Shown here: piece by piece, positions 1 through 52,113 of the stretch | Numbering within the stretch: position 1 is the stretch's first letter | Layout: each line of letters starts with the position of its first letter | Assembly: GCA_903813345.2 (NCBI GenBank) | Contig: CAIIXF020000012.1 | Coordinates: 21,650,184 to 21,714,183, forward strand | Source of the DNA: Owenia fusiformis | Lineage: Eukaryota > Annelida > Polychaeta > Sabellida > Oweniidae | Length of the DNA: 64,000 bases | Direction: 5' to 3' | Program-made: the position numbers and the translations under genes | Notes under the pieces: generated by a model | The model's input: the letters and a program-made list of their open reading frames with translations, nothing else | Database searches by the model: none | Told to the model about the DNA's origin: nothing

Positions 1-3000
1 ATGGATGAATCTGAAGGAGACCCTCACATCCCATCAGCTGGTTCTGAGGAGAAACAAGGAGAGACATCCCCCAAGAAACCTATATGCATTATTGCACTTG
101 GGATGGCTGGATCAGGGAAAACAACCCTAGTTCAGGTACATACATGTATATTACAATTTGAATATTATATATACTGTTACATTCTGATACTCATATAGCA
201 TCTGTTTCTCAGGGCTGAGAAGAAATGAGATGTCATGGTATATCATGATGATACTGTTAGTGCACATTTGATATATTATCTGGGATTGACAATTACTAAT
301 CATTAAGTATATCAGTCCCAGATAACATTCATTGTTCACATCAGATGATTCATTCCTCATGTCTATTATGTAAAATTGCAGTTTTCACAATCTGACTAAA
401 ATTTGTCTAAGGTACCAGTTTTCATTTTCAAGTGGGTACAACTGGGTTTTAAATGGGTACATGTCAATAGCCTGTTTTAACACTTCAAAGTTTGTGTGCC
501 CGACTGCTTAAATCTGGGGAGATCACTGCTTTAAGCTGATCACCATATATATTCTTATATTATATATTCTATGTACATGTGATTTAATGGAACTGGCATT
601 CATGACTTATGTAATAAATTGATACCCATACATGTATATCCACATCTCTTCCAATCTCTTAGTCCAATCTCTTTGATTATGTTTTAATGGCACTAAGGTA
701 TTATAAGGAAATCTTGTTTTGCTATTTTTAGAGGCTGACAGCTCATCTTCATGCAAAGAAAACACCACCGTATGTTGTTAATCTTGACCCTGCCTGTCAT
801 GAGGTGCCCTTCCCTTCTAATATAGGTAATTGTATTTGATACTGAAAATGTCATCATTAAAAAAAATTCAGTTTAATGTGTGACTCAATTTTTTTGCTTG
901 GCAAATGACTACAATTATAACAAACTGATAACAATATAGCCCCCAAAGGCTGCTATAAAAATATTTATTCCATAGTTAGCATGATATTCATAGGATAACA
1001 TGTGAAAATAACTGTATTTTTGTAATCAGTGGTAAAATATGATATTTTTGACAAATTTTCACTTAACCATAGCATACGTTTTTTTAGCCATGACATACGG
1101 CACCGTATGCGATGGTTTATGGATTTTTGCTACTTCAGACTCAAAACGAGGCAAAGTGTCAACATCGCCGGATCGTTTAGAAAATTCGAATTAAATAACT
1201 TAATTTCCGACGATTCTGATGATGACTTTAACTATGGAATAAAAAGAACATCCTATGATTTAATCGTGATATGATTTTAATCCACTCATGGATATTTATA
1301 TCTGCACTCTCTCACTACGCTTGCTCGTGCAGACATCATATCCATTCGTGGATAAAAATCATATCACTCATAAATCATAGGATATCCTCTATATATAAAT
1401 ACAATATAATAAGTGATAATTATCCCATCGAACGAAGTTCGGAGGGATATAGGGAACGCCTCCGTCCGTCCGTACGTACGTCCGTCCTTCTGTCCGTCCG
1501 TCCGGGCAATAACTCAAATACTGTTGGCCCGATTTTGTTCATATTTTGTACACATATACCCTATGGGAGTAGAAAATCTGCTCGAAAGCCGATTTTCAAA
1601 ATGGCCGCTCATTTCAAAATGGCGGCCATTTTAGTGCCGATTTTACAGTAATTTAGGTGTAATATGTAAAACTGTAATAGCAATATGTTTTAAATGTAAA
1701 AAAATTATAAAGGACATTAATAATGCTACAAATGTAGATATTAAAGAAGCACATGGCAGCCATCTTGAAAAATGGCGGCCTTTACTCGTCATTTTACGAT
1801 TTTTGCTATAACTCAAAAAATAGTGGAGCGATTTTGTTCATATTTGGTATGTGAATACAATAAGCATTGCACACTGTCTAAAGACACTTTTGGTAGAAGG
1901 CGGCCATTTTGAAAAAAATTTTGAAAAATTGCCGCCATTTTAATGTATTTTACTATAACTCGAAAAGTAGTGGAGTGATTTTGTTCATATTTCGTATGTG
2001 AATACTATAAGCATGGCACACTGTCTATTTCTAATGACACTTTTGGTAGACAGTGGCCATTTTGAAAAATGGCCGCCATTTTAACGTATTTTACTATAAC
2101 TCGAAAAGTAATGGAGCGATTTTGTTCATATTTGATATGTGAATACTTTAAGCATGGCACATTTTCTAATAAAACTTTGGGGAGTAGTCGGCCATTTTGA
2201 AAAATGGCCACCATTTTTATGTGTGTTATTTTACAAGTACGTGTGCGATTTTTCAAAAATTTTAGAGGTGGCTACTTAAAAGCACATTATTTCTTCTGAT
2301 GACAACTTGGCTAGTGAGCAACCATTTTGAAAATGGTGGCCTTTCTGGTGTGTTGTTTTATGATATTTGCTATTCGTTTGTAAAAATGCCAGCCATTTAT
2401 ATATATCTTTTATTGACTCTCTGATGTCATTACAATGACATATTAGTCATTAAAAACTACAATCTACAAAACTGACCTAAGACTAAACTAACTATTGAAT
2501 ACAAAAATAAAGTTGTTTCTGTTCGATGGGATTCGCTACGCTTTGGCGTTGACGTTGTTCTGGTTTTAATTAATGATTTATATGTATACATGTATTTTAT
2601 TTTATTTCAGATATTCGAGACACTGTTAACTACAAAGAAGTCATGAAACAGTATCCTTTTTCAAATACATGTACTAACATTTTAATTTTTGGGCTGCTCA
2701 ATCTTTTCATACAGTTTTAACCAAATGCTTATTTTTGGCTCACATAGGTGATCGGGTAGGTGTAAATCTGTTTGTTGGTCCATTCATCAATCTGTTTGTT
2801 GGTTCTGTCTGTCCATTTGCAATTTGCTTTATTTCTGAATATATGAGACATGAGAAAAAGGAAGGAATAAAATCTTTCATCTAAGTCAGGTGACCTAGTT
2901 TTTGCAAATTTCAGAAAGAAGAACATCATTTTTTTCTAGTTGCTATTGAGTCTAATTAAGTCAGATCTCTTCAGTATTATGTCTCATATTGGTTCATGTA

Positions 3001-6000
3001 CATGTACACAATTCAATTTATATAACAAATTATTATTTATTCCAAGCAGCCTCCAACTATTATTGTTATTTTAGAATCAGCCTTTAAGTACAAATGTGAG
3101 TACTCTTCCCTTGATTAGTGAAGTTGATCCTTGTCATTATTCAGATACAATTTAGGTCCAAATGGAGGCATTGTGACATCACTCAACTTATTCGCTACAA
3201 GGTTTGACCAAGTGATGGGATTCATTGACAAAAATAAGTCCAAAAATGAGTAAGTGATAGTTAAACTAAAGGAACACTGTCTCAGATTATTCATAAAGGG
3301 AATGATGTTCAGTTGCCTGTTTAGTAAGAAGATCATAAAGAAATATTTAGAATATAAAATTCTGAAGTTCGGGAAGGTTATAGAGATATCAGTCATTCCT
3401 CCATCCTATGTTCGTCTATCCTGGTAATAATTTATATACCAGTTGACAGATTTAGTTTAATGACTAATAAGAATAAACTAATTATGTCTAATATTGGAAT
3501 TGGACCTCTATTTAAGAAGGAATTTCCAGTATTAGTATACCTGCATGATGTACTGATACCTTATTGGCAAATTCAAAATAAGCAATCATGTTTTGTAATC
3601 TTTGATTACTGAAATACCACTTGACTGATTTGATTCAAATGTTATAGTTGATGCCTATAAGGATCGGAATAAAGATGTCTGCTCAAGAAGAAATTTTCAA
3701 GATGGGTACTAACTTTTTAAATGGCAGTGATTGTTTACATAAATGCTAAGTTATCAGTTGTTGGTCTTAATTTCTTAGGCAAAAATCTATTGGGAATAGG
3801 GTCTATATTCGAGAAAGTATTCCCAATATTGTTACTTAATTCAAAATTGAATTTTGGTAACCACCACTTTTTAGTAAAAATTCAATTCTTGATAGCTCAC
3901 GAAAATTGTAACATTTGTCACAGATGCTAATGACAAATACCAGTCACAAAAACTATACAATAACAAAAAGTCCTCACTTTCTTGTATTGACATAAATTAT
4001 ATAACAATTTCAGATTAATGTATGGCTTCTAACATTCATTGTCATGTTATAACCACTCGCTGTCTTAAATATTCTAACTTTAATATATTGTTACAGGTAT
4101 ATTATACTGGACACACCTGGCCAGAGAGGTGTTTACATGGTCAGCATCAGGCACTATTATAACACTTTAATATATTGTTACAGGTATATTATACTGGACA
4201 CACCTGGCCAGATAGAGGTGTTTACATGGTCAGCATCAGGCACTATTATAACACTTTAATATATTGTTACAGGTATATTATACTGGACACACCTGGCCAG
4301 ATAGAGGTGTTTACATGGTCAGCATCAGGCACTATTATAACACTTTAATATATTGTTACAGGTATATTATACTGGACACACCTGGCCAGAGAGGTGTTTA
4401 CATGGTCAGCATCAGGCACTATTATAACACTTTAATATATTGTTACAGGTATATTATACTGGACACACCTGGCCAGAGAGGTGTTTACATGGTCAGCATC
4501 AGGCACTATTATAACACTTTAATATATTGTTACAGGTATATTATACTGGACACACCTGGCCAGATAGAAGTGTTTACATGGTCAGCATCAGGCACTATTA
4601 TAACACTTTAATATATTGTTACAGGTATATTATACTGGACACACCTGGCCAGATAGAGGTGTTTACATGGTCAGCATCAGGCACTATTATAACACTTTAA
4701 TATATTGTTACAGGTATATTATACTGGACACACCTGGCCAGATAGAGGTGTTTACATGGACAGCATCAGGCACTATTATAACACTTTAATATATTGTTAC
4801 AGGTATATTATACTGGACACACCTGGCCAGAGAGGTGTTTACATGGTCAGCATCAGGCACTATTATAACACTTTAATATATTGTTACAGGTATATTATAC
4901 TGGACACACCTGGCCAGATAGAGGTGTTTACATGGTCAGCATCAGGCACTATTATAACACTTTAATATATTGTTACAGGTATATTATACTGGACACACCT
5001 GGCCAGATAGAGGTGTTTACATGGTCAGCATCAGGCACTATTATAACACTTTAATATATTGTTACAGGTATATTATACTGGACACACCTGGCAAGATAGA
5101 GGTGTTTACATGGTCAGCATCAGGCACTATTATAACACTTTAATATATTGTTACAGGTATATTATACTGGACACACCTGGCAAGATAGAGGTGTTTACAT
5201 GGTCAGCATCAGGCACTATTATAACACTTTAATATATTGTTACAGGTATATTATACTGGACACACCTGGCAAGATAGAGGTGTTTACATGGTCAGCATCA
5301 GGCACTATTATAACACTTTAATATATTGTTACAGGTATATTATACTGGACACACCTGGCCAGATAGAGGTGTTTACATGGTCAGCATCAGGCACTATTAT
5401 AACACTTTAATATATTGTTACAGGTATATTATACTTGACACACCTGGCCAGATAGAGGTGTTTACATGGTCAGCATCAGGCACTATTATAACACTTTAAT
5501 ATATTGTTACAGGTATATTATACTGGACACACCTGGCCAGAGAGGTGTTTACATGGTCAGCATCAGGCACTATTATAACACTTTAATATATTGTTACAGG
5601 TATATTATACTGGACACACCTGGCCAGATAGAGGTGTTTACATGGTCAGCATCAGGCACTATTATAACAGAGGCATTGGTGAGTTGATTACACTGAAATG
5701 AATATGTGCTTTTTACATTTTATAGTATAATTATTAAAGTTTTCTATCAAAATCTTCTGTTTAATAGTAATTCATAAAACAATTGGATATCTGTCTTCTC
5801 TAAGACTTTCACATTAAACATCCCTGAAAGTTTTGAAACTAACACTTATTTGTATTTTGTAGTCACATTAAAATGAAGAAATATTTTCCAAACTTATTGT
5901 TAACCAAGGGCGTTACAATACCCGGGAATTTATCGGTTCGTGCAGTTTTGTGATAGCGCCATCTGCAGGTCACTGTGGTTATAGCCTACATAATACGGGG

Positions 6001-9000
6001 TAGGATATCGGGAATTCGGTGCAGTTTCTATCCCTTGATTACGCTATGAATTGAAGCAAGTGTGACTACTTTATCCACTTAAACAATTTGATAATTGATT
6101 AAATCGTTAAACAAAATCGATAAACACGTCATACACTTCCCATCTCCTTAGAAATTAGCATGTATTTATCAGATTGTGTTTTCGGACGATGCTCGACCCA
6201 GACCACTAGGGAAATCCTTATGCTAATTAGTATAACGTCATATTTTCCTGGGGAATCCTAGATTTCAAAGCCTCAGTCTTTTATTGTGTCAAATGTAAAC
6301 GTTCTTTTGCAGACAGAAAATTGACAGATTAGCTTTTAACTTTCAGCTTTGATGTTTAAATATTCTATATTTCTACCGGACTTCTTGCTGAATATCATAT
6401 AATGTTACAACTTGATTTGGATTTTGGACGATTGCCTGATTGATCCTTTCTGAAATTTTGATTGCGTTCACGATTGATTGGCAAGAAAAATAATTCCTAT
6501 TCTTTTCCAGCGAAGTCTAAATGTTACAGCATAAATTATAATAAATGGGAAGTAGAATGAAGGATGGGCTTCTATCAATACATGGATTGTGCAATGGAAA
6601 AGCAATGGCACAATCAAAAATGTGCATATCAATCGTGAATATCTCTCGGTTCAAAGCTTAATTCCAACAGAATCGTGTCAAAATATGTGTCTGAATAACA
6701 GTTATACATTATAAGATCGCAAACTCTTACAAATTATCAGCCGAATGGCTAATTTTCAACGAAATGTCCTTAAGACAACAGCCCTGGGTCGCGCCTATGA
6801 CGAAAATAAGCTTGAATATCCCTCCCTTAAATAATATTGATAATCACATTTATGCGTGCGCACGCAGCTCATCCACTGAACGAAACGCCACTTCCCGCTG
6901 AAATCACCGGGTATTGATCTTTCCCTTGTTGTTAACGTGTCCTTGTATTAATAAATCCATGTCCATCATGCTCTACAGTGCAGTGGTCTCCCCAGGATTA
7001 GTACAGCTGGATCTATCCTGTTAAAATATATTAAAACGTAACATGCCTCACTATTCAAAATCTGTTGCACCCTTTTTTAAGTGATCAAATATTGAGATAT
7101 TTGGCCATAAAACATAATTATTAGGAATAATCAATCTGATTAATGAAAGTACCTTGGGAGATCCCTGCTGTATATTGTGCATATATTACTTGCAGGCTTC
7201 GTCATACCCCACAGTGGTAGTGTATGTAATGGACACACCTAGGAGTGTTAACCCTGTTACGTTTATGTCAAACATGCTCTATGCATGTAGTATTCTCTAC
7301 AAGACAAAGCTGCCATTCATTGTGGTCATGAATAAGGTAGACTCGCTAACATTTTATCAGAGTTCTGCTTTACAAAATGAAAAGTTCTGCAAGCCAAAAT
7401 GTGAAATTCTGCAAGCCAAAATGTGAAATTCTGCAAAAATTCTGTTCATGAAAACACAGAATGAAATCCTGTGCTAAGGGTTCTTTGGTTCTCCAAACCA
7501 AAAATCACCCTTTTGAAAAACTAGTAATTCTGCATTTTTTCTGCTGTGGCATGTAAAAATGGAATTCTAGTACCTCTGATTTTATGTAAAAATTGCTACA
7601 CATGGTTAGGATATCAATTTATAATAGCATATTCCTCATATAAACTAAACTGAAACATTAAAAAGTACCTAAAATACAACATTGGTTAAGAGAATTTTCC
7701 ATATTTCATACTTCATGATTATATGTGTTAATTGCTGTCTCATTTAGCCTGTTAAAACTCTATTGTTGTTTTCAGACTGACATTGTTGATAATGGGTTTG
7801 CCATGGAATGGATGCATGACTTTGAGGTATTCCAAGAAGCTCTTGAGCAAGAAACCTCATATGTTTCTAACCTTACTAGGTCCATGAGTCTGGTCCTGGA
7901 TGAATTCTATAATAATCTCAAGGTTAGCAACTTTATAATCCAAAACTCTTTGAGTAATCTTAAGGAAATGTCTCAATGGCCCCTGTTACATTGCAGGGTT
8001 GAAGGAAGTATGGGAAAGACTGACCACCGACCAGTCAATCTCCATCCTTGGGTCCAAAATCCATAGGCGGTGCTTATAGGTTGGTGGTTGGGGGTCCTTC
8101 TTTTTCATACACCTCATTAATTTAGCATATGGTGTCCAAATGACCTACGGCCCTAATAGTCTAAACTAGTGGTTTATTGTGGAAATCACCTGCATTACTT
8201 GTTTTGAATCATTTTGAGTCACAGAATAAAAAACATCACATGGTTTATGTTAATTGGCTACTGATGCAGAACTAAACATATTATTATTAATGTGTGTTCT
8301 CTCGAAGTTATATGGAACACCACACACTTTTTGTTACACACTTTAATCTACCAATGGAGTATTATTTTTGCTATCTCGCTTTTAGCAATGAACAGGGGCA
8401 TGGTTGTATTGCAATTGCAATTTCAAGCATTTTATGGCACTGCATGTGTTTCAGGCTGTAGGTGTTTCTGCTGCTACTGGTCTAGGAATTGCTGAGTTCT
8501 TTCAAGCTGTTGATGAGAAAGCTGATGAATATGAGCTGTAAGTACATCCATCAACCTTCTCCTGAGCATGACTATACCTATCTGAACATAAATTTGTGAT
8601 TTTTATGAATAGAAACGTAGTGCATAGATTGAACAGAGTATCTAATTTCCTGTAGACATCGATATTACACAAAAGGGTTCATTAATACATAAATCAATTG
8701 AAATTACAATATTATTAAACTGTTTCATCTACAGAGAATTTTAGCTTACAAATGGGTACTTCCAGACTATCAGATGGGTCTTACCAGAATATATATGAAT
8801 GACTCAACGGATGCATTTATGTGTGCAGCCTGTAGCTGTATATTAATATGTGTACATATGAGTATACTGCATATATAAATTATAATGTTAATACGTTTTA
8901 GGGAGTACAAAGCAGAGTATGAGAGACTAAGGAAGGCAAAAGAGGAAAGGGAACGCAAGGAACAGATAGAACAACTCAAGAAAGATACATCAGGGGAGGT

Positions 9001-12000
9001 TGACCCTATTGCCAAGGAAACAAGATGTATGTTTATGTACTGGTATACACACGTAATCCAGAAACCTATCACATTTTTGTTGTTGTTTTTTTGTTAAAAT
9101 TGATAAATAAGTGTGATAAGAACCGAAAAACTGAACCGTAAAACAAACCAAAAAGATAAAAACCTTGAACCGACCAAACCGAGGAAATTATGAAACCGTT
9201 AGAGCTCATATGGCAAATACATGTATGTGTGGTAGGATAACATAACTTAATCTGAAGGTAGAAACACCCCTGTATAATCTAAGAGGACCTTGTATCTTTA
9301 TCCTGGCTAGGACCATAGGCAGTTCTAACCAGTGCCAGCCTTTTATTGAGTCAGCAGTTAGCAGCACTCTAGTAATCATCTCTCTCTGGTGTACTAGTTA
9401 GCTCACATGCTGAGCTATTGCAATCACCCACTTGTCCTTCTGTCTGTCCGTCCGTTTTAAAAACTCTGTCAATAGGATTCCCGTTTTAAGTTATTTTTGT
9501 TCAACATCAATAAAGAAAACTCCCTAAAACTCCTGGTTCAAAAGATTTCAAAATGGCTGCCATTTTTGTCTCGCGAAATTCACTTTTGGACCATTTGCTT
9601 TAAAACCTCTATTGAAAGGTTCAAAAGCTCACTATTTTCAAAATGGTCGCCATTTATGTCTCGCGAAATTCACTTTTGGCCCATTTCCTAGCTTTACTAA
9701 TAATTTCAGGTTTCCTGCATTGTAAAAGCCATGTCACTGTATAGAGTAGGAGTATGAAATAATTTTGTTGCAAAAAATCGGCCAAAAATTATATCCGTTT
9801 TTATGTCCCCACCACATAGTGTGGGGCCATATTGTCATCCTAGGTGCGTCCATCCGTCTGTCCGTCTGGTTGTCTGTCTGTCCGTCCATACGTCCGGCAG
9901 TTTTCTCCAAAACTGCTACAGATATCACCTTCAAATTTTCAGGAATAACTTGTGAGTGCATACAGATGTGGATGAAAAAAATTAACTCGATAGCTACTTC
10001 CTGTCGGCCATTTTGAGTTCAAATGCTAAAATCCTTGTCTGCACACTTTAAGAAAAACGGCTTCACAGTTGCTTTTAAAACTTTAACATCTTGTTCAGCT
10101 CACTTCATTCTACATCTGATTAGGTTTTGGACCCGTTAGCTCAGTCATGTCAGCCATTTTGAATGTCTTAAGAAAAGTTAGCGCGCGATAATACTTTGTA
10201 TCATATTGAATGGTGTTTTTGAGTTTTCATACTTTAACTATTTAGTAACTTTATAAATAATTTCAGGTGTACTTTGTTGTAAAAGCCTATGTTATTGTTA
10301 AGAGTAGTTATATATGTGATAATTTTGTAAAAGGAAATCAGCAAAAACTCATGATCACTTTTTATTGTCGGCCATTTCGGTTTTTTCCGTCCTAAAATCT
10401 TGTCTGTAGTCTTGTCTACGCGTTTTCAGGTGAACCGTTTGGTAGATTAATTTCGAATTTTCAGAGATGATTCTTAGTATGAAAATCTAAATTTTATTAG
10501 TTTTTTGGCATTCTGGGTAAATGTCAAGGCAGCCATTTTGGATTTTCTTTCCTAAAATCTTGTCTGTAAAGTCTTGTCTACGCGTTTACAGGTGAACCGT
10601 TTGGTAGATCAGTTTCAAATTTTCAGGGATGATTCTTAGAACTTATTAGTTTTTTGACATTCTGGTTCAATGTCAAGGCAGCCATTTTGGATTTTCCATC
10701 CTTAAATCTTGTCTGTAAAGTCTTGTTTAACTGTTTGACGAATCAATTTCAAATTTTCAGGGGTGGTTCTTAGTATGAAAATCTAGAACTAACTAACTTT
10801 GGGGATTCTGGGTAAATTTTAAGGCAGCCATTTTGGATTTTCCGTCCCAAATTGTGTCAGTAAAGTCTTATCATTTTCAGGATAACCATTTGACGGGATC
10901 ACCCATTGGTGGGGACATTTTGTACACATTAGTGTTCTTGTTTTATTTGCAGCCATTTTAGTTAACATTGATTGCATTGATTTGTCCATCTGTCTCGCGA
11001 AATAAACTTTTGGACTATTTGCCTTAAAACCTCCGTCGATAGGATTCCAGTTTTAACTTTTTGTTCAACATCAATACAGAAAACTCACCATGTGACCCCA
11101 GTACTCACGGTTCTATTTATTAACATTAGCTAGCTTCTTTTGCCACATGCTGGGATTGAACCCAGGACCTCGGCATAAGAAGTCCAGTTTGCTATTTACC
11201 TTTACAGAATGGAGACGAAGACGAATTAATGCAGTTTGCAAATCTATAAAATAATATACTTGATTGTAAAATGGCTGCATAGATGTGTTTGTCTAATAAT
11301 TGAGTGTGTTTGCAGATACTTTGAAGGGTGAGGTGAGGAGTAATAGGATGCCAGGTATGGTGATAAGGCCTGGAGCTGATGAAGAGTCAGATAGTGATGA
11401 TGCATATGAACACAGCCCACAAGGTAAACTTTCAATTAGCTTTCTTATTTGGTTAATGTAGAGTTTCTGCATGGCATATGAAATTGAAATGACAACACTT
11501 TGGTATAAATCGCCCAATATACAAATTACATGTAGCTTTCTCGCTTAAAGTAAAGTTAAGTGTTTACTTCGACTTAACAGTGTCAAGATATAGGGACAGA
11601 AAATATTCTAGCATAGTAAGAGCATTCAATATACAGTAAGCAAGTGTAACACAGGCCTTGAGTTTATTGATTTTCTCCACATCGCTATTTTACAAATTTT
11701 GCTGTAACTTGAATAGTGGAGTGATTTTGTTCATATTTGATATGTGAATTATACTCATTAGCATTCCACACTGTTTATGACATTGGCTGGCATATTACAC
11801 TTTTTTATGACAATTTGGCTATTGTGTGACCATTTTGAAATTTTAATGTCTGATGTTTTACAATTTTTGCTATAACTTAAAAAGTAGTAGAAGGATTTTG
11901 TAAAAATGGCATCCATGGCTGTTTGATGGCATTTGCTATGCTTTGGCGTTGCTTTCGTCTAGTTATTCTTTTTATTTTTTCATAATTACTGCGTGTCCAT

Positions 12001-12971
12001 AGAATATTATTAGGAGGGCACAAGCTCCAAGAGAATTACCTCCACTGATGTCTAATTCCCTCCAATCATTTAAATTACTCAGATGCGAGAAGGTAGTTAC
12101 CAGTTCCGCCACCAGGTGGCTGATTCGGGGGAATTAACATGGCAGGGTATTACAAAATTCCCTTACACTTGAATATGCATCAGTTTTAGTGGTTCACCGA
12201 TCATGATAAACTCTTCAAAACCACATTTCTAAATGTAATTTTACATGTAGATTCCAAATATGACATCAGTTTGAATGAATTGTGATTTTTAATAAAGTAA
12301 AGGTATTTCTACTCGCATCGGGGATATTGAATGTATTGATTTCATGTATTTACAGACTTATTACGTCAATGATTTTTGTTACACCCTGACATTTGCATTT
12401 ATCAGTTGACTTTATTGAACCTAAAAAATTGTCATCAGTTTGGTTGGTGGGTGGTGTCGTCTCACTTTTCTTGTCATTACGATTCCAGGAAAACCACTAG
12501 TCTGAGCTGATTAACTTTTCAGTGGCCATCTTGCTCTCTGGTGGCCATTTTGGAAGTTTTTTGGTAAATCTTGCCATTGCGATTCCAAGAAAACCCACTT
12601 AACATAATTGCATTTTTACACACGTTACATGGTAAGAAGCTTTAGAGCTGATTAACTTCATTGGCCATCTTGCTTCCTTGCAGCCACACTGCTATAATTT
12701 AGGTACACCCTTTTTTGTTCACCTAGTTAAATGTTCCTCACCAGTTTCTGGAAATTTTGTTTCTAGGTTCATATTTTCTTTAAAAATTGTTGGTTTTGCT
12801 CACTTAATCAGAGCATGCATGTTCAAATATTGTAATTCAACTCTCTGATTTGATCTATTTGCAGATGAAGAAGAGAGAATAGAAGTAGAATCATTTAAAA
12901 GATATCTGGACAAAGAGAAAGATAAAAGAAGTGTACAAATAAAACAAAGGACTGAACAGGATGGCCACTGA
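1..12971 (+). CDS. GPN1: GPN-loop GTPase 1 (XPA-binding protein 1 type), 11 exons, complete
   Basis: Exons: 1-135, 732-825, 2611-2650, 3145-3249, 5600-5678, 7196-7336, 7776-7922, 8455-8537, 8902-9026, 11316-11423, 12865-12971. All junctions are GT/AG and the reading frame closes at TGA 12969-12971, giving 387 residues (human protein about 374). Visible motifs: P-loop GMAGSGKT (34-41), the family-defining Gly-Pro-Asn loop (94-96) in [21 protein letters not shown]3 DTPGQ (130-134), G4 NKTD (197-200, split by intron 6), and the strongly conserved [18 protein letters not shown] charged, lysine/glutamate-rich helix follows (exon 9), then an acidic tail. Family knowledge: GPN1 pairs with GPN3 and is needed for assembly and nuclear import of RNA polymerase II. 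The ATG lies at the first base of the window, so an upstream in-frame start or 5' UTR exon cannot be excluded. Exon 5 is the last of 18 tandem copies of its 5' part. Confidence in family is very high; the exon 9 donor (9027) is the least certain junction. Confidence 0.95.
136..731 (+). other. GPN1 intron 1, no feature recognised
   Basis: AT-rich intron between exons 1 and 2. I see no coding exon, RNA gene or obvious repeat in it. Confidence 0.5.
1417..2565 (+). repeat. Dispersed repeat in GPN1 intron 2, with internal subrepeats
   Basis: It begins at CCCATCGAACGAAGTTCGG, runs through a TCCG-rich microsatellite (about 1462-1505), then roughly 130-150 bp subrepeats at about 1795, 1945, 2089 and 2230. 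Each subrepeat contains TTTTACTATAACTCGAAAAG, a TTTTGTTCATATT motif and ATGGCCGCCATTTT. It ends near GGGATTCGCTACGCTTTGG. The same end and subrepeats recur at 11680-11967, and the same start recurs at 13684, so this is an interspersed family. Short ORFs here (Arg-Pro-Ser-Val runs) are products of the TCCG tract and not genes. No transposase was seen. Confidence 0.7.
3605..3720 (+). repeat. Fragment of the same dispersed repeat family in GPN1 intron 4
   Basis: It contains ACTGAAATACCACTTGACTG, then TTGATTCAAATGTTATAG and a downstream TTTTCAAGATGG. This is the same order of motifs as the subrepeats at 13900-14340 and 21550-21670. Confidence 0.5.
4075..5670 (+). repeat. 18-copy tandem array of GPN1 intron 4 end plus 5' part of exon 5
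   Basis: TTACAG acceptor sites start at 4091, 4178, 4267, 4356, 4443, 4530, 4619, 4708, 4797, 4884, 4973, 5062, 5151, 5240, 5329, 5418, 5507 and 5594, i.e. 18 units. The unit is 89 bp, or 87 bp in copies 1, 4, 5, 9 and 17, which lack two bases after CCTGGCCAG (AGAGGTG instead of ATAGAGGTG) and so are frameshifted within the exon. Each unit holds about 20 bp of intron end and about 66 bp of exon ([20 protein letters not shown]). Only the last unit continues into GAGGCATTG followed by a GTGAGT donor. Other variants: GGCAAGATA (Gln to Lys in DTPGQ) in copies 12-14, GAA for GAG in 6, a T-to-A change in 8, and CTT for CTG in 16. The ORFs seen across the array are read-through shadows. A collapsed or expanded assembly is possible. 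Confidence 0.95.
5904..6931. mobile_element. Non-autonomous DNA transposon with TTAA flanks, in GPN1 intron 5
   Basis: The left end CCAAGGGCGTTACAATACCC is matched in inverse orientation by the right end, which reads inward CAACAAGGGAAAGATCAATA followed by CCCGG. Both ends abut TTAA (5900-5903 and 6932-6935). The element is about 1.03 kb with no transposase ORF. The TTAA target and short imperfect inverted ends fit a piggyBac-type non-autonomous element; that family assignment is inference. Confidence 0.55.
9804..10917. mobile_element. 1.1-kb repeat element with TGTCCCCACCA inverted ends, GPN1 intron 9
   Basis: It starts TGTCCCCACCACATAGTG and ends TTGGTGGGGACA, so the ends are inverted repeats of 11 bases. 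Inside are a TCCG/TCTG-rich tract (9846-9900) and about four 130-150 bp subrepeats containing TCTTGTCTACGCGTTTACAG, TCAAATTTTCAGGGATGATT and GGCAGCCATTTTGGATTTTC. The element lies within a wider repeat tract (about 9420-10980) that also contains CGCGAAATTCACTTTTGG-type segments at 9570, 9660 and 10985. No coding capacity was seen. Confidence 0.6.
11140..11200 (-). repeat. tRNA-derived SINE-like fragment
   Basis: On the minus strand an A-box-like TAGCAAACTGG (11184-11194) is followed about 20 bases later by a B-box-like GGTTCAATCCC (11152-11162), inside CTGGGTTCAATCCCAGC, a good T-arm. No cloverleaf with a paired acceptor stem is visible, so a SINE head or tRNA relic is more likely than a functional tRNA. 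Confidence 0.45.
11680..11967 (+). repeat. Fragment of the 1417-2565 repeat family, GPN1 intron 10
   Basis: It contains GGAGTGATTTTGTTCATATT, TGATATGTGAATTATACTC and a terminal GCTATGCTTTGGCGTTGC, matching the subrepeats and the 3' end of the repeat at 1417-2565. Confidence 0.6.
12030..12140 (-). repeat. Short interspersed repeat with CCACCTGGTGG core (copy 1)
   Basis: The minus strand reads CAGCCACCTGGTGGCGGAAC, then GGTAACTACCTTCTCGCATC. The same order appears on the plus strand at about 46965-47012 (GAGCCACCTGGTGGTGAAAT, then ATAACTACCTACTCGCATCT). Two related copies in opposite orientation show a dispersed family; its class is unknown. Confidence 0.5.
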
Positions 12972-13683: not shown

Positions 13684-14345
13684 ATTATCACATCGAACGA
13701 AGTTCGATGGGGATATATAAACGCCATCCGTCCATTTGTCCGTCTGTTTGTCCGGGCGATAACTCAAATACCGGTTGACGGATTTGATTCAATTTTTTGG
13801 GCTATGCCTTATGGAGATAGAACCTCTGCTCCAGTACTGCTCGAGCAGGAATTTTCAATATGGCCCTTCAATTCAAAATTGCCGCCATTTTTCGAAAAAA
13901 TGTAATCTTTCATAACTCAAATACGAGTTGACGGATTTGGTTCAAATTTTATATGCTGCTGGCTAGGGACAGAGGAGTTTTGCTCAAGAAGACATTTTCA
14001 AGATGGCAGCTGAATTTCAAAATGGCCGCCATTTTTCGTAAAAGCGCGTAATCTTTGATAACTCAAATACCAGTAGACGGATTTCGTTCGAATTTTATAT
14101 GCTGATGCCTAGGCACAAAGGGGCTTTTGTTCAAGAAGATATTTTCAAAATGGCGGCCAAATTTCAAAATGGCAGCCATTTTTCGTAAAAGAACGTAATC
14201 TTTGATAACTCAAATACCATTAGACGGATTTCATTCAAATTTTGTATGCTGATGCCTAGGGACGCAGGAGCTCTGCTCGATAAGGAATTTTAAGATGACA
14301 GCTGAATGGCCGCAGTTTTTCTCAAAAGAACGTAATCTTAAAATG
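13684..14345 (+). repeat. Dispersed repeat with about four 130-bp subrepeats
   Basis: It begins CATCGAACGAAGTTCGATGG, has a TCCG/TCTG tract, then repeated blocks of CTCAAATACCNGTNGACGGA, TTCAAATTTTATATGCTGAT, GCCTAGGGAC and TTTCAAAATGGCNGCCATTT. It is the best-preserved copy of the family seen at 1417, 3605, 15410 (inverted) and 21550. Confidence 0.7.
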
Positions 14346-19149: not shown

Positions 19150-20600
19150 CTGCAAAACGAATGAACAAATCTTTATTAAATTATTTTCATTTGGTGTCTG
19201 ATAAGAGGAATTTACATGATAAGTACAGTAAGTCATGTTAATCTCACGTGTATGCTTTGTAAAATCTTCAGACCCCCTCACTAATAAATCAGAAACTGTT
19301 TATTAAATGAATATTCTTATTTAAATCAATTACACAAACCAAAAAGATGGGTTGTTTTGTTTCGTTTTTCAAAAGCTGCATTTAATGCTTTTTACAAAAT
19401 ATCAATTGATTATACTCACTTTTAAAAACTTGCAACGACTCCTTTGGTAGATTAAAACATAACCTTTTTAGCTAACTTGGCAGTTAGCCTTGTTTTGTCA
19501 AGAGGTATGATATATGGCATCTATAGGTAATAAAAATGTAATGTTATTCAATCAGATAAATTGTTCAATGATCAACTTGAAATATCAAAAATAGCTTTTA
19601 ACCCTTCTCACTGGCGTTCAACGTATCTCAAACATCATGCCTAGTAGCACAAAACTCACGGCACTTGTATCTCTATGGGGTTTTATTAAATCCTTTATAT
19701 AATTCATTTGGTGTATTTTTTCTAGCACAAGTAATGTGACTTTAATCAGTATACCGATGATTAAATAAACTGGCTATGAATTAAGCATACACGTTGATCG
19801 GTGAGTGAGTAACTTTGCATATTGTAATATTTTCAGCAGACGCCATGTATTTCCTATGAGCAACTTTAAAGTATAATTTAGGGTAAGTTATATTCATTTA
19901 CACCTCCATTTTGAAAATATATGCGACTTGGACTTTTATTTATATAGAACATTGGTCAGATGGTATATTTGGAAGATTTGTTGGAATAAATCAGTCATTC
20001 TGTCAAATTATTTTACTTCGACGTAGCAAAGTGATAGTGATAACGTAACATTTATATCCAAAGAACATGTGTACGTTTTTATAGATTTTATTATATAAAA
20101 TATAGCATATTTACAATTCTTTTTGGCATGGAGAGACGGCTATCTATCGATCAGAGCTTGCGTAATTGTATACAAAAGAAAAGATTACGTAATCATGAGA
20201 TAATGTTACGCAATGACAGCGCAAAATCATGATTATGCAACCTTACATAATCATTAATTTTTGGGATAAGAGAGAGAGCCCCGTGGGGACCGAGTGATGA
20301 GATAGATAGTCGCCTCCGAAGTCCAGGCCACCCGATACCTCCTATTAATGGGGCGAAGGGGTGAGGGCGGATAAGCATCGGAGCTCATATAATTGTGTTG
20401 TGTTATCGATGTAAAGTATACTAAATTTCCTGTATTTTTGAGGACCATTAAGGAACATTATATAAGCTCAAAGTTATTTAGTGATGTGTCTTATTTCAGT
20501 GTGATCACACGTCTTTACAATATGGAACAAGGGCATTTTACTTGTGTCCGGCGTTGTCAGAATCCAAATGTTCACATTTTCGAAGATGTAATAAATCACA

Positions 20601-21044
20601 TTATTATATCGCTATCTAGCTAGCGACAGTATGATTGGTCAAAACCGGGTCACATGTCGTGGGATATCTGGCGATATTCAATGGCAATGCTAATCAGATA
20701 AGACAACCGTGAGATATCTAGCGATATCCCACGCTCCCGGGAATTTTCAAAGAATTTGTTTTCGTCCAGTGTAAATAATTTAGTTCAGTGTAAGTCAAAA
20801 TGGCAGACGAACCGAGTAGATTCGTATGTATTTCAATGTTAACCTATGACTTAATAATATTAGGGATGTTTAGCTAGACAGTGATATAATAAAACAAATA
20901 TTTCACTCTATTTTCGGTGAATACCTGTAGCACTTTCACAAGGTGATATTCCACTTGCCCTTCGGGCTTCGTGGAATATCACTTGTGAAAGATGTACAGG
21001 TATTCACCGAAAATAGAGTGAAATATTTGTTCAATATCGTAAAA
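20601..21044 (+). mobile_element. Element fragment, copy 1 of a tandem pair, with long hairpin
   Basis: It begins ATCGCTATCTAGCTAGCGAC, contains TCAAAACCGGGTCACATGTC, a short ORF start MADEPSRFV (20800-20826), and at about 20899-21034 a near-perfect hairpin with about 60-base arms. The arms carry ATATTTCACTCTATTTTCGG and GTGATATTCCAC around a TTGCCCTTCGGGCTTC loop. The second copy at 21113-21545 is about 95% alike by eye. The MADEPSRF start followed in copy 2 by VKISEDLM resembles, from memory, N-termini of DUF3504 (Crypton-type tyrosine recombinase) proteins; this is a weak inference. Confidence 0.55.
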
Positions 21045-21112
21045 CATACAGACAAATATTTGGCTGAATTTAAAAATGGCCGCTATTTTTCATAAAAATA
21101 TGATATTTGATA

Positions 21113-21545
21113 TTATTATATCACTATCTAGCTAGCGACAGTATGATTAGTCAAAACCGGGTCACATGTCGTGGGATATCTGGCGATATTCAGTGGCAAT
21201 GCTAATCAGATAAGACAACCGTGAGATATCTAGCGATATCCCACGCTCCCGGGAATTTTCAAAGAATTTGTTTTCGTTCAGTGTAAATAATTTAGTTCAG
21301 TTTAAGTCAAAATGGCAGACGAACCGAGTAGATTCGTAAAAATATCTGAAGACTTAATGACTTAATAATATTAGGGATGTTTAGCTAGACAGTGATATAA
21401 TAAAACAAATATTTCACTCTATTTTCGGTGAATACCTGTAGCACTTTCACAAGGTGATATTCCACTTGCCCTCGGGCTTCGTGGAATATCACTTGTGAAA
21501 GATGTACAGGTATTCACCTCAATAGAGTGAAATATTTGTTCAATA
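21113..21545 (+). mobile_element. Element fragment, copy 2 of the tandem pair
   Basis: This is a direct repeat of 20601-21044, starting ATCACTATCTAGCTAGCGAC. The short ORF here reads MADEPSRFVKISEDLMT and then stops; in copy 1 the frame diverges after SRFV because about 15 bases differ. The hairpin is kept (about 21405-21540) with a few base losses (TCACCTCAATAGAG instead of TCACCGAAAATAGAG). The 68 bases between the copies include an AAAATGGCCGCTATTTTTC segment of the dispersed repeat family. Confidence 0.55.
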
Positions 21546-22190
21546 TTTGATTTGAAAATAACTCAAATACCAGTTGACAGATTTGGTTCAAATTTTATAT
21601 GCTGATGCTTTAAAGACTTCGAAATAGATGTGCAAGAGGTAATTTTCAAGATTACTAACAACTTTCCTCATTTATCAATTCAAAATGGCTGCAATTTTTC
21701 ATGACTTAATTTTTAATAACTGAATTACCAGTTATAGTATTTGGTTCAGAAGTAGATTAATGTTCTATGAGCAAAATGAGCTCATGGAGACATTTTCTAT
21801 GTGATCATTTCTCGGGAAAGTTATATATACAGTGTAAACGATCTTTTCCGATAACACAAAAACCGGCTGGCAGATTTCGTCCAAATGTTATATATGCTAG
21901 ACCTAATGCTATTTGGTCATGGTTGGGCGAGTAATCATTCCATTTGCAAAGTGGGCCGAAATTAGCTTTTGGCCAAGTTATAAACATCGCAAAAGTCAGT
22001 GTACGGAGGCCAATGCAATATGGGAAGAAAACATAAAACCAATGCTGACTGCATCCTTTTCATCAATGTACCAAAAAGCCAAATTACTCCTCTTTGCAAT
22101 GGAGTATCATTCACTTGGAGTCATCTCTGGCTGAATAATCATTTATTTTGCAAAGTTGGGCAAAATTCAGCTCGGACCCAAGTTTTAAAC
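21546..22190 (+). repeat. Degenerate dispersed repeat, subrepeated
   Basis: It contains ACTCAAATACCAGTTGACAG, TTCAAATTTTATATGCTGAT and TTCAAAATGGCTGCAATTTT, the family motifs seen at 13684-14345. Two related blocks follow at about 21900 and 22080-22180 (GAGTAATCATTCCATTTGCA and AATAATCATTTATTTTGCAA, each then AAAGTTGGGC or AAAGTGGGCC). Confidence 0.55.
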
Positions 22191-22997: not shown

Positions 22998-25900
22998 CTG
23001 AACGTGTGGAGGAGTGGAGAGGGAGTAGACAATGATGTCAGCAATATCATCACTTTCCAGGTGCTGAAAAATATTTTTACAAATGGGATTTTCCTTCGTA
23101 ATTTTACAAATGAGATTTTGCCTTCGTAATTTTACAAATGAGATTTTGCCTTTGTAATTTTACAAATCAGATTTTACCTTTGTAATTTTACAAATTAGAT
23201 TTTGCCTTTGTAATTCAAATGATATTTGCCTTTGTAATTTTACAAATGAGATTTTGCCTTTGTAATTTTACAAAAAAGAATAGTTATATTGGTGTGACGA
23301 TGGACACATACCAACCATTAGGTTTGCATCATTTGTATTATATTGTTTTATCGCTATTTATATAACATTTTGTCTATTATTTGAATGTACACTGAACCCA
23401 AATAATTGTTTTTGAACAATATGTCCAAACGGCCAAAATACCTGAGAGTTTGCATATTTCTTCTCTGCCTTTTTTTCTGACCCAAGCATAGTAGCGTGGA
23501 AGTGAGATTTCACCATACCTGGACTGATTTGCTGAAAATTGAGATGTAGTACATGTAGCTAATGACATCTATAGTTGCTCATTGAAGATCCATTAGGTAA
23601 AAGTAACTTAGGGGGAGATTTTTGGTGTATTTTTACTTTTTCAATTATAAAACATCAATAGTCATATAATATTTTTAGCCAGAAACGGTTAATAGATATG
23701 ATAGATGTATTTAGGATCTGTCATTTAGGACAAAAAACGTGGGTAAATACCTTTTCTAAATCTAAGATTTAAAGGAACGAAATATAAAAAATCGTGGGGG
23801 AGGGGAGACAAAACCTAGTCTAGGATTATATAATAATTGTGCACAAATAAACATCCTAGACAATACCCTCGGCTATAATACGATTTAAGAACTTTGGACA
23901 TTGGCTGACTATATGCTGTGAAAAATGCTTTAGTGCATCTTGGCCAGCGAAAACGCAATCGTGTAGAAAATACGCATATTTTAGTCAGAAGTTGCTCCAT
24001 TGACCAATTTTCATAATTTGCGCCATATTCGTATAAAGTGGTTATACAGGTGCACAATCAAAACTTTTTTGTTCTATATTAAAAATATTTTAAAGTAAAT
24101 AAAGCCATCCCTCTGGTACTCCACTCGATTACACTGTTACAAAATATCGAAGGTACGATTTTCTTGGCTTATTTCTGTTTATCTTTCCTTATTTCTGATA
24201 TTTCACGCGTTGTAGGCAGAATTCCCACGACATTTTTAATAAATGCGTGTTTCAGTATCATATGTCTAAAAATGTACATGTTTGCGAACAAACAGAATCG
24301 TCGATTTAATAGGGAGTTTAAGCTTGCATATAAAATCGAAACGCCAACCTATACGTTTGACCAATCGCCCATACAAACGCATCGCTTAAATATTTCCTGT
24401 TCACGTTTAGGTTGTGAAAAACATTGCAAGCTTAAGCTCCCTATTACCACACTTTTGTTACGTAAACGGAACTTCAAAAACGGTTAAGATCTGCATTTCA
24501 AGCCCGTTCAGGACCTCCCAAAAAATAATTTCATGGATATATGCCGCGGACAGTTGTGCGCCACAATATGATATTGAAAACATTGTATCTCAGTCAATAA
24601 AAGTACAGTCAATAAATATACATTGTCTTAGTTGATCGGACTTACTTATTACATATGAACTCCATCGAGTAGGCTTAGAGCCAACACAAAGTTCTAAAAA
24701 GCAAGCCCTATGTCCTGTTTAAGAACCTTTATTCTAACTATTGAAAATGGATTCTACCAATACTCTCCCACATGAATCTACTTGTTGAGATTCGATCAAC
24801 TTGAGTTCTTCTGAGAAATATGGGTTTCAGCAAGGGTCCATTGACTAAACATGGGGATATATGCCATTGACTCTTGATTTTTTTCTCAGAAAAACTCAAG
24901 TTGATTGAATCTCAACAGGTACATTCATGTGGGATACTAGTGCTAGAATCCATTTTCAATAGTAAGAATAGGAGTTTTTAAACAGCACATTAAAGCTTAA
25001 CTTAAAGGCCTTTTTGAAATCTTTGGTTAGTATTAGCTATGTTATAATGCAACAAATCTATAACTGAGGAATTGACCACGATTGAATGAATAATCCTAAA
25101 TTACCATCACTCTTATATGCGAGTTAATATCTCGGAGCTCCCAACGTATGCTCTCGGTGATGGCATCAACGGCATACTTCGTTGCAGAGTAAACGTGCAT
25201 TTTACCAACTCTGTGACCAGATAAACTAAAATCAAACTAGCCATGATTAAAATTATGAAACCGCCGTATTGATGCTGATGAAGTTGCGAAATGGCATTTA
25301 GAAAATACATTTTTGTGTATTTCGAAAACTAATCATATGTTATTTAGGCCTTTTGAATTCTTAACGAACCTGTTCATATTGATTATCTGTCCATCGTCTA
25401 CATTGCGTTCTCTCATGCTCTTCACAGCTCCTTGTGTGATAGACATCAGTCCATAGACGTTCACCTAATGAAATCAAAAAGTGTATAGTAATACTGAAGT
25501 ATCGTCAGCTTAACTAGATGAGTACCAGTGGTTGTGGGAAGTGATTGATATTTGCAACGGTAATAATTCTTATAATGGGCCTATACTATATAGTTGAGAT
25601 TCATGAAGAATTGTCAACATAATATTACCATCATAGAAAACAATAAATCGGTGTGCATATTATATGCATATACAATTGGGGTTTTGAAAAATGCAGAAGA
25701 AAATCTGAATCTTTCCTAAAAATCGAGGAAAAAACTTGGATAAATTCTGGTTTCGTTTTATGAAAAATCGAGAGAAAATCGGAATTTCTAGAAAGATCAA
25801 GATGAGAAAATCTCGACTGCTAAAAACGAGTCGAGAGAAATTGGGACTTGACAGTCGCTTTGACTTTGCTTCTTTCTGCGTGACATACATCACTTGGCCT

Positions 25901-35408: not shown

Positions 35409-36538
35409 GATTTCCTTTTCAACTACTAACCTGTAAACTTACCGACTGAGATATCAAAGTTCATACTTTTTAGTCCATTCTCGTTTTTTCTCAGTATGCC
35501 TTTGAGCCACTCAAACTATTAACTACATGTATGTATGAGCAAGCCATAAAATGACAAATTCAGAACAGGAATGTGGTGTATATTGTAAATATGGTTAAGG
35601 ACCAGTGGTTTTCCTCATAGGTTTACATGTTAACCCCCATATTTGTTTGAACGACTATTTTCTAAGCGTGGAACAAAAGAAATCCCAATAAAGAAAATAA
35701 ATCTGTATCTTGATTATATTCCCTATAAAGTCCGCAACATTTCAATGTTATATCTCCATTACATTGGGTCAAAATTTGATGTCAAAATTGATCAATTTCA
35801 TGAAATGTAACAAAAATGGCAGATCCCATGTTAAACAAATGGGGAATGGTTGGGTTGCCATAAGTCATATGAGGAACGATCCATCCATCCGATTGCTTTC
35901 AAAATTAGAATTTTAAGAGACAATTAAATTTGCTATATTGTCCACTGGACAAAAATATGATTTAATTTTCCAGGTTTCACAAAAGTTAATGGTTTCAAAT
36001 TTAGTAATTCTTTTAAGGATCCTCTTATTGAAATAACATAGGTGGTCAGTGATGAGGTGGTTAAAATTACTATATATCGCTAATTTTACCAGTATAAGCT
36101 AGACATTTAGCATGTAAAATGTAAAACCATTCGATTTTCAACTCAGAAAGTTTTTTCAACAAATGTTTCACTGAATATATATCCCAAAATTTGAGTTACC
36201 CCTAAGCCACCATTCCCCATTAGGAAGGTAGGAAACATATGTTATTGACCAGTTAGAGATTATCGACGAACTTGATGCATAATTTGTTATGTTGTCCGAG
36301 TTTCCGAAGCAACATTTGATTTTTTGTCAAAAAATCACCATTAAAGCTGTTTTAAAGAAATAATAAGCAATATTTTCAAAATATAGCGAATGGTAATGGT
36401 AAACAGTTGTGTTGACATCAAGATAGCACATATTAATATCGTTGAATATGGGATCTGATACGGAATTTTTGAAAATCAATTCTTTTTCCTGTTTATTTCC
36501 CAGGGAAAATATCTTATTATGGAATAAAATATGATATA

Positions 36539-37385
36539 CACTCCCCTCCATAAGTTTGGCAACCTTAGCTCCTTCATTTAACTACATGTTAAAGCCTCTT
36601 TACGTTTGAATTTTTATTTACATAACATGTGAAGAAAAAACTTATAATATTGATGAAAATGGAACTTTACTTCATTTCCAATTCCTCCAAATCTTCCCAC
36701 TTTTTTCCTCAGTTACAATAGATCGAAAATTGATGATAAATTTAATGAAATTTTGAAAATCGTCATTTCCATGTAATCCAATGGAAATTGGTGGGTTCGG
36801 GGCAAATCTGATTTCAGGATATCTAGCCAGTGAAAGATTCACCAAAAAATATTGAATTCTCTAACTTTTTTGTACGCTAAGTGTTCAGTTTACTTTATAA
36901 ATACTAAAGTTGCAGAGCTTCAAAGTCATTTTTGAAAATCATTTTTCGCATCCTGTGTTATTTCAATGGGAGGAGTTTTTTGAAAGATAATTTTAGACCT
37001 ATAACTTTTTTAAACCTGAAGAAACGTATCATTTTTTATTAAATAAAGTTAGCAAATTCAATTAACTACCTAACTTGTATATTTTGCAAGAACTCAGATG
37101 GATGAATATTCTGTCATATGACTTGCGGCAAACCTACCATTTCCCATTGGTTTACATGGGAATGTCAATTTTCAAAATTTCATCAGATTTATCATCAATT
37201 TCCGACCTTTGAGGGAAAAAGTGGGAAAATTTGGAGGCATTGGAAATGAAGTCAAATTACATTTCCATCAATTTTATACGTGTTTTCCTCGCCGGTTATG
37301 TAAATAAAAATTCAAACATAAAGAGGCTTTAACACGTAGTTCAATGGGAGGGGGGCTAATGTTGCCAAACGTTGAGAGGGGAGTG
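36539..37385. mobile_element. Foldback/MITE element, 847 bp, TA-flanked
   Basis: Inverted arms of about 250 bases begin CACTCCCCTCCATAAGTTTG (left) and end CGTTGAGAGGGGAGTG (right), each next to TA. Arms share GTTAAAGCCTCTTTA, TTTGAATTTTTATTTACATA, TTCATTTCCAAT, CTCCAAAT and AATTGATGATAAAT on the left with reverse complements on the right. The interior (about 36830-37100) has no ORF. Tc1/mariner-type target choice is suggested by the TA flanks. Confidence 0.75.
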
Positions 37386-37389
37386 TAAG

Positions 37390-39605: not shown

Positions 39606-39716
39606 TGTATACATCCATATTGCTAGGTATTTTATGTTACATGTAGTTGTTCATTTTACGTACATTTGTTTTAATATAAAATATAATTAAAATGTATGTC
39701 CAATAATTAATTACTA

Positions 39717-40817
39717 GTACCCCGGACAGGTTGAATGATGCAGTTGTGTTTTTACTCTATATTTCCAATAGAACAACCATTCTTAATGAAATTTTTGTAT
39801 TTGATTCTGGAGACAATTTCCAACATGGAAAATAAATATTTTAACAAAATTCGAAATTTTATGATTTTTATCGGCTTTTTCAAAAATATGCCACTGTCAA
39901 TAAAATACAGTTTTTTCTTGAACAATTGAACTTTTAACGTCATCTCAAAAATTGTCAAGCTATTGAACTTTTGGCCGCCTAAAGTCTTTCCAGATGTATT
40001 TGATGCCGTATTAATTACGGCTGATTATTGTTATTCATTTTTGTCAAATTCAATAGGCCTAATGTTATTACAATGCATTAGGCCAATGAAAAACTTGTCA
40101 CTCTGGGTCAAGTTTCCTCGGATAACGCACCTTTTTCGCCACTGTTTTTTCCGCCGCTGTCACTCAGCATGCAACCATGTGGCACGTAAATTGTACCATG
40201 CTTTGAATATGTCAGGTTTCCCTGACAATTTCATGATAGAATGTGACACACCTATATTAACGTCTCTGAAAGATCTAATGCCAGAAACACTTGAAGTTGG
40301 AGATTTGTAATGTTTTACCTCATTTTGGACAGTATTGAACAGTTCGATCAGGTTGAACTCCTGTCCATTGACAAGAAGATTGACCTCCTCAATTTGGGCT
40401 TAATCTAGGGAACGCTTCACAAAGTGAGACCCAGAGCAACACGTTTTTTATTGGTCTAATGCACTGTAATAATATTGAATATGACTAAAGTGAATAACAA
40501 TAATCAGCCATAATTATTAATATGGCAACAAATATATCTGGAAAGACTTTAAGCGGCCAAAAAATTATATAGCTAGATAATATTTAGAATGACGTAATAA
40601 GTTCAATTGTTCAAGCAAAAACCTGTATTTTATTGACAGTGGCATCTTTTTGAAAAAAGCCGATAAAAATCATAAAATTTGGAATTTCGTTAAAATATTT
40701 ATTTTCCATGTTGGGAATTGTCTCTAGAATAAATCTTTAAAATTTCAATAAGAATGGTTGTTCCATTGCATATATAGAGTAAAAACACGACTGCATCATT
40801 CAACCTGTCCGGGGTAC
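39717..40817. mobile_element. Inverted-repeat element, 1.1 kb, TA-flanked, with possible captured exon
   Basis: The ends GTACCCCGGACAGGTTGAAT and ATTCAACCTGTCCGGGGTAC are inverted and abut TA at both sides. Arms run about 400 bases (to about 40115, and from about 40425), with shared TGACAGTGGCAT-type, GAAAGACTTTA/TAAAGTCTTTC and TTATTACAATGCATTAGGCC segments. Arms are diverged by perhaps 10-15%. The central 310 bases are single-copy and contain an exon-like segment (listed separately). Confidence 0.8.
40169..40309 (+). pseudogene. Exon-like coding fragment inside the inverted-repeat element
   Basis: A long pyrimidine-rich tract ending CACTCAG precedes an open frame CNHVARKLYHALNMSGFPDN, then FMIECDTPILTSLKDLMPET, LEVGDL and a TAA stop. 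A 3' splice site plus stop without a donor is what a captured terminal exon would look like. The wider ORF starting at 39963 runs through the repeat arm and is probably not coding. The parent gene was not recognised. Confidence 0.35.
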
Positions 40818-40819
40818 TA

Positions 40820-51180: not shown

Positions 51181-52113
51181 TATAATTGATCATTCATATC
51201 ATTTTCAAATACCATCGGATTGTGGGTTTGGCATGTGATTTATTTCTCATTTAATTGATTTTAAATAAACACGCTAGATTTAAAATTACTCATTTTATTC
51301 ATCTATGATTTAAGGAATACATCTACAGTATACAGTGTCCATTTTGATTCAATAATCAATGTAGATTTTGCACATATTCATAAATCTTTGCATTTGTACA
51401 TTCACATCGAAACATTAAGGTAGAACAGCACAGAAGAAGACTATAGCATTAAATAAAATGTTAAACATAGTAATACACATATGGTTCTACATTTTAATTC
51501 CAAAACAAGCATGAATATGATGTAACAAGTCCTATGTATCAAGTCACATGGACAAGTTATGCTGCCTGCTACAGAGGTCAATGTGTAAGATATATTGACC
51601 GGATATATTGATTGGTTGTAGCAAGTCGAATATTGATACAAATTAAAGTCTATAGACTAGTCAGTCTGCATGCACACGATCATCTTTTTGTCATCTGAAC
51701 CAGAGCATTGCAAGATAGTATAAATTATAGATGCTGCTGACATATAGCACAAATGTTCTCAAGTCCAAGGTAAGAGGAGTGAGCCTGAAAAAAACAAAAA
51801 AAACAATCAGGATTGATTTAATTTTTGAATGCTCAATCTATTATGAGTACCAGTATCAACACCTGTTTTTGATCTAATGAGATATTCATGTATATTCTTC
51901 AAGAATAAATTGAAATGTGGTGTTTCGTTTATCAAAGCAGTTGCCATCTTGACTTTGCCCAATGTGAAGTAGGAATGATTCGGGCAACAGACCAAATGTG
52001 AAAATAATGAAACCTGGCTTCATGGTACATTTGTACATTAAGTGAAATCAAGGCAGTCATCATTTAGTGTATTTCATAGAAAAAATATTTGCTAAACATA
52101 AATGTGCCAGCAA

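Follow-up and report, generated by a model that had tools for sequence, protein, structure and literature searches.

The GPN1 gene carries, within the 64,000-nucleotide stretch of DNA analysed here (the window), 18 tandem copies of the boundary between intron 4 and exon 5, and only the last copy runs on into the complete exon. The array is probably a minisatellite of the mirage type, i.e., a tandem repeat of an exon/intron boundary as described from amphioxus, with units 1–17 leaving the transcript together with intron 4 and exon definition selecting unit 18. It amounts to a natural experiment in the choice of a 3' splice site, in which 18 acceptors sharing the same 31 bases compete within a housekeeping gene; the last alone is accompanied by the exon donor and the first alone by a CTAAC motif, such that RNA reads would separate first-come choice from choice by exon definition. 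Furthermore, the array shows how intron lengthening or intron gain via tandem duplication can begin.

The GPN1 gene and its tandem array

The predicted GPN1 coding region (positions 1–12971, plus strand) comprises 11 coding exons (Table 1), whose borders were placed by eye and by the open frame; the coding sequence of 1164 bp translates into 387 amino acids without an internal stop. The protein matched Pfam family PF03029 (E 1.2e-83) and, over residues 8–367, the GPN-loop GTPase 1 chain 9t5j_B (E 7.8e-148), the latter alignment taking in the exon-5 peptide with the motif DTPGQ. We take this chain to be the human protein. The identification of the gene as GPN1 in the first-pass annotation, with the G3 motif DTPGQ and the rest of the gene intact, is confirmed by the open frame of 11 exons and by both matches. 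The presumed start codon opens the window at position 1, and an in-frame start could conceivably lie farther upstream, beyond the window edge.

Table 1. Predicted features of GPN1 and of the array in intron 4/exon 5 (window positions; a slash marks the splice border)
Feature	Position	Strand	Remarks
GPN1 coding exons 1–4	1–135, 732–825, 2611–2650, 3145–3249	+	predicted from open frame
GPN1 coding exons 5–8	5600–5678, 7196–7336, 7776–7922, 8455–8537	+	predicted from open frame
GPN1 coding exons 9–11	8902–9026, 11316–11423, 12865–12971	+	predicted from open frame
Exon 4	3145–3249	+	donor ATGA/gtaagtga
CTAAC branch-point-like motif of old intron 4	4074–4078	+	branch A at −20 relative to acceptor 1
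Tandem array, 18 units	4078–5669	+	13 x 89 bp, 5 x 87 bp
17 surplus acceptor-to-acceptor segments	4097–5599	+	each GTATAT...TTACAG, 87 or 89 nt
Unit 17 (87 bp)	5494–5580	+	exon part from 5513
Authentic exon 5	5600–5678 (79 bp)	+	made up of the exon bases of unit 18 and 9 unique ones; carries the G3 motif DTPGQ
Exon 5 donor	at 5679	+	ATTG/gtgagttg
Exon 6	7196–7336	+	next acceptor used beyond the array in the gene model

TRF reported one array in GPN1 (4077–5669, period 89, 18.0 copies, 98% matches, score 3074), and a search of both strands of the window for a 24-base core (at most 3 mismatches) gave 18 hits, all inside the array (expected number 0.00, from 100 shuffles). Together with the splitting of the array at a common 19-mer, by which the unit borders were set, these results bear out the eighteen tandem copies of an acceptor with a truncated exon that had been noticed earlier. 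The array does lie within the extent of 4075–5678 given at that time, but the repeats end at 5669, and 5670–5678 are unique bases of exon 5. Each unit consists of 19 intron bases ending in TTACAG, followed by the first 70 of the 79 exon-5 bases in the 89-bp class (13 units) or 68 of the 79 in the 87-bp class (units 1, 4, 5, 9 and 17), rather than by about 66 bases as estimated before. The remaining 9 exon bases and the donor follow unit 18 alone.

Alignment of the 18 units revealed five variable sites, which occupy six columns. The short class (5 of 18 units) owes its length to a 2-bp deletion that shifts the frame; a C>A change common to units 12, 13 and 14 turns DTPGQ into DTPGK (Q>K); and each of three further substitutions is confined to a single unit. 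Unit 18 has neither the deletion nor any substitution and keeps the conserved reading. The mean pairwise substitution between units is 0.7%, and unit positions 1–31, covering the whole intron part (19 bases) and the exon start (12 bases), are the same in 18/18 units, all five variable sites falling within positions 32–66. The acceptors had been called identical, which is correct for this first part, while the units as a whole differ at the five sites. Selection preserving the acceptor part of every unit was not deduced from this distribution, which comprises only five events and may reflect homogenisation. The chance of three adjacent C>A carriers among 18 units is 0.02, in a test picked post hoc, and their clustering fits local turnover of units. 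The variation is in line with a minisatellite that is either young or homogenised and whose upstream units would be free of coding constraint.

A search for GPN1 relatives with a short protein pattern matched 21 genome-contig and 37 viral-contig stretches, none of which tblastn confirmed, and a repeat pattern taken from another part of the window had no match in the genome contigs searched. The G+C content per 2-kb step lies between 31 and 39% across the window, and neither tRNAs (ARAGORN) nor Rfam families (gathering thresholds) were found in it. Judging from this composition, the spliced GPN1 and a rhodopsin-family receptor gene, the host is probably an animal.

Further repeats of several kinds occur in the window. 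Degenerate tandem repeats of ≈ 141 and ≈ 147 bp are present in GPN1 intron 2 (1801–2217) and just beyond the gene (13838–14307), respectively, both carrying AAATGGC/GCCATTTT blocks. A second minisatellite (23075–23274) has a 28-bp unit in 7.3 copies with 89% matches, and four tandem copies of ≈ 2.4 kb occupy 51888–62496, with aligned pairs 93–98% identical and with AATAC and GGTT-type short repeats inside. Direct repeats of ≈ 437 bp (95% identical) form a pair at 20600–21546, and inverted repeats were located at 39712–40823 (≈ 400 bp, 86% identity) and 36537–37387 (≈ 260 bp, 84%). The sequence TACATGTA occurs 22 times in the window (1–64000), against 2.3 occurrences expected from base composition alone. 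An uninterrupted frame of 446 amino acids at 42267–43607 on the plus strand (Pfam 7tm_1, E 5.7e-19) belongs to a rhodopsin-family receptor without an intron there.

Splice signals and the fate of the surplus units

According to the reading we favour, a segment of ≈ 89 bp, in which the last part of intron 4 is followed by the greater part of exon 5, would have been tandemly duplicated and then expanded and homogenised to 18 copies by unequal exchange or slippage. Because the copied segment ends 9 bases before the 3' end of exon 5, the exon donor follows the last copy only. The spliceosome would pair this donor, at 5679, with the nearest acceptor, at 5600, and units 1–17 would be excised inside intron 4, lengthened by ≈ 1.5 kb (2350 nt including the array). 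Since the complete exon is made by the last copy only, the array is probably harmless, and probably tolerated without a function of its own. In favour of this reading, units 1–17 carry changes unfit for a used exon, namely the frameshift in 5 of the 17 and the Q>K exchange in units 12–14. Chief support for undisturbed splicing of GPN1 would come, by analogy, from the amphioxus mirages.

The duplication appears to have been cut at the branch-point-like motif, such that the first acceptor retains the CTAAC of the old intron and the last retains the donor. Units 2–18 have ATAAC at −22 instead of CTAAC, contributed by the exon end of the preceding unit, and the later units also offer TTTAC at −49 and TTAAT at −14 as candidate branch points; these motifs were computed for units 1, 2 and 18, and the relevant columns are invariant in the other units. 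Against the favoured reading, the 18 acceptors do not differ over 31 bases, and acceptor 1 keeps CTAAC and is also transcribed first, so the wrong copy would be preferred if splicing were first-come. The exon-5 donor TTG/GTGAGT scored 8.78, the top of the gene's 10 donors, with human weights, and 2.23, the second lowest of the 10, with a matrix derived from the gene's other nine donors. Its apparent strength thus depends on the weights chosen, and the case for exon definition rests on the uniqueness of this donor to unit 18 more than on its strength.

Weakness of the array acceptors was considered as an explanation and rejected, as the exon-5 acceptor has a pyrimidine fraction of 0.62, ordinary for this gene (0.50–0.81 over its 10 acceptors). 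An RNA structure hiding the upstream acceptors was likewise rejected: in the region folded, 5492–5680 with units 17–18, the z value was −0.95, and 39 of 200 shuffles folded at least as well.

What use of an upstream acceptor would entail can be read from the frame. If exon 4 is joined to any of acceptors 1–16 and the later units are kept, a stop follows after 149, 178 or 207 codons; acceptor 17 yields an in-frame addition of 29 amino acids and a full-length frame of 416, and acceptor 18 the normal 387. The early stops predicted for the upstream acceptors by the first-pass annotation are therefore found for 16 of the 17, with acceptor 17 as the exception. In the GPN1 frame an 87-bp unit reads as 29 open codons, which is why read-through from acceptor 17 stays open, and the 89-bp unit ends in TAA. 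Among all 131072 sets of retained units, the 32 that are stop-free are exactly those without an 89-bp unit, and they add 0 to 5 blocks of 29 amino acids. Such outcomes would be in keeping with a leaky array, in which partial use of the upstream acceptors, mostly ending in early stops and decay, holds down the output of GPN1, and a smaller share of messages, formed via acceptor 17 or with retained short units, encodes GPN1 with extra 29-residue blocks. We regard this as improbable: the insert would sit where the GTPase core carries its G3 motif, which makes a functional longer form unlikely, the 2-bp deletion is placed irregularly along the array (units 1, 4, 5, 9 and 17), as neutral turnover predicts, and the amphioxus mirages are, in the cited accounts, reported or inferred to leave splicing undisturbed.

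Splicing to the last acceptor or aberrant transcripts had been proposed as the sole choices. This pair is incomplete: each unit, 87 or 89 nt long, is also a possible intron, and a third course is thereby open. Exon 5 begins with GT, and every array acceptor consequently reads TTACAG/GTATAT; all 17 surplus segments run flush from GT to AG, and each could be removed as a small intron without a scar. The units had been described as lacking a donor, which holds for the exon-5 donor, present after unit 18 only, but a GT stands directly at every acceptor. With the human weights this site, CAGGTATAT, scored 5.99, above 6 of the 10 native GPN1 donors, a value reached or exceeded by 105 of the 3491 plus-strand GT sites outside the array. 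The gene's own matrix gave 7.42 for the site CAG/GTATAT, compared with 0.64 to 8.58 for the native donors left out singly, the two not being strictly equal because the matrix held all ten donors when the array was scored. Other GT sites within the unit, GAGGTGTTT (4.57) and ATGGTCAGC (5.06), come near some native donors.

The units might accordingly behave as zero-length (recursive) exons or as small introns, retained units being removed later from their GT to a later AG. Acceptor and donor being fused in CAG/GTATAT, the same GPN1 message would result from any order of removal, provided that no surplus unit is left and acceptor 18 is used last. A gene that corrects its own surplus splice sites, with 17 scarless mini-introns at one splice junction, is nevertheless a reading to which we assign only a small chance, somewhat above that of a leaky array. 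In its favour are the form of all 17 segments (GTATAT...TTACAG), the rank of their donor-like site, the position of exon 5 as the only one of 10 GPN1 acceptors followed directly by GT, and the confinement of the 9-mer CAGGTATAT, on the plus strand of the window, to the array acceptors; moreover, tandem duplication of AGGT is in print as a source of introns (PMC4974935, PMC2891723, as far as these accounts go). On the other hand, GTATAT lacks the G at +5 of GTAAGT, the same GT on exon 5 itself would risk skipping of the exon, and the donor regenerated once exon 4 has been joined, TGA/GTATAT, scored −1.18, below 9 of the 10 native donors, with the weights used, which are human. A ratchet starting at exon 4 is weak by these weights, whereas with the gene's own matrix the site reached 5.15, inside the native range. 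Scarless removal in several steps is thus possible as judged from the splice motifs, and would be better supported for internal units than for a ratchet from exon 4. If it took place, the number of acceptors could grow freely in an essential gene.

There is also a slight chance, comparable to that of a leaky array, that assembly or consensus building multiplied or miscounted one or a few real copies and that the 2-bp class is a read error. The near-identity of the units (see above) makes the copy number hard to assemble, and one draft genome version of BflGb6 haplotype 1 in amphioxus was judged aberrantly assembled (PMC3087553, legend of additional file 4). The variants between units, with neighbours 12–14 sharing one substitution and three substitutions confined to single units, argue against plain multiplication of one copy by an assembler, although they do not prove the exact copy number, and the amphioxus PGBD5 repeats agreed between older and newer sequence data in the account consulted (PMC3902484).

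Related repeats and introns in other genes

A tandem acceptor array of this size in an essential housekeeping gene had been called unusual in the first-pass annotation. The kind is already in print: mirage minisatellites spanning exon/intron boundaries are described from amphioxus Adh3, the globins BflGb6 and BflGb9, and troponin C (PMC3087553, PMC3902484), and the amphioxus PGBD5 repeats have been likened to them (PMC3902484). A search of the open-licence literature returned no report of a tandem splice-site array in GPN1, which, given that scope, is weak evidence.

In human segmental duplications, tandem repeats at boundaries may give rise to novel introns, and transcripts that retain the repeats occur as alternatives (PMC2812944). 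These variable internal tandem repeats share the exon-intron boundary position with the GPN1 array; they belong to recent paralogues, whereas GPN1 is a conserved housekeeping gene. Recursive splice sites or zero-length exons, for which the fly consensus is (Y)nNCAG/GTAAGT, have in common with the array that an acceptor is followed by donor-like sequence, CAG/GT (PMC5126111). GPN1 departs from the fly sites, as these are described there, in its GTATAT, in the fairly short intron and in the location at the border of a coding exon.

Another parallel is provided by AGGT tandem-duplication introns, known from vertebrate ATP2A1, a 24-bp case in fission yeast and potato RdRp (PMC4974935). There, as in GPN1, the copied segment has AG/GT, such that the copy is flush GT-AG and its removal leaves the message unchanged, and in potato RdRp, as in GPN1, the acceptor region derives from a pre-existing intron/exon border (PMC4974935). 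Unlike the AGGT cases, the AG/GT of GPN1 is an existing 3' splice site, and its copies most simply lengthen intron 4 without creating a new intron position.

The amphioxus mirages resemble the array in having boundary copies in tandem inside a gene, many of them with AG/GT. The GPN1 unit spans the exon/intron boundary with 19 intron and 70 or 68 exon bases, and the host gene is otherwise intact with a single authentic boundary copy, unit 18. In BflGb6 the same part is duplicated, i.e., the 3' end of an intron and the 5' part of an exon, and RT-PCR together with the Adh3 data suggest undisturbed splicing (PMC3087553); the Adh and TnC mirages are said to yield no aberrant mRNAs (PMC3902484). Concerted evolution between units is reported for the amphioxus mirages; in GPN1, the low mean divergence of the units and the C>A change of adjacent units may reflect either homogenisation or a young array. 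The dimensions differ: BflGb6 has 6 or 3 units of 150–160 bp that are 81–100% identical, compared with 18 near-identical units of 87/89 bp in GPN1, the Adh3 units measure 10–72 bp, and the copy number in GPN1 exceeds the 6 of BflGb6 and the up to 7 of PGBD5 (figures as given in PMC3087553 and PMC3902484). Splicing was examined for the amphioxus mirages. By anatomy the GPN1 array is to be classed as a mirage minisatellite, its units being both more numerous and more uniform than those of the cited accounts. Should its host not be a cephalochordate, mirage minisatellites would extend beyond amphioxus, the sole group in these accounts.
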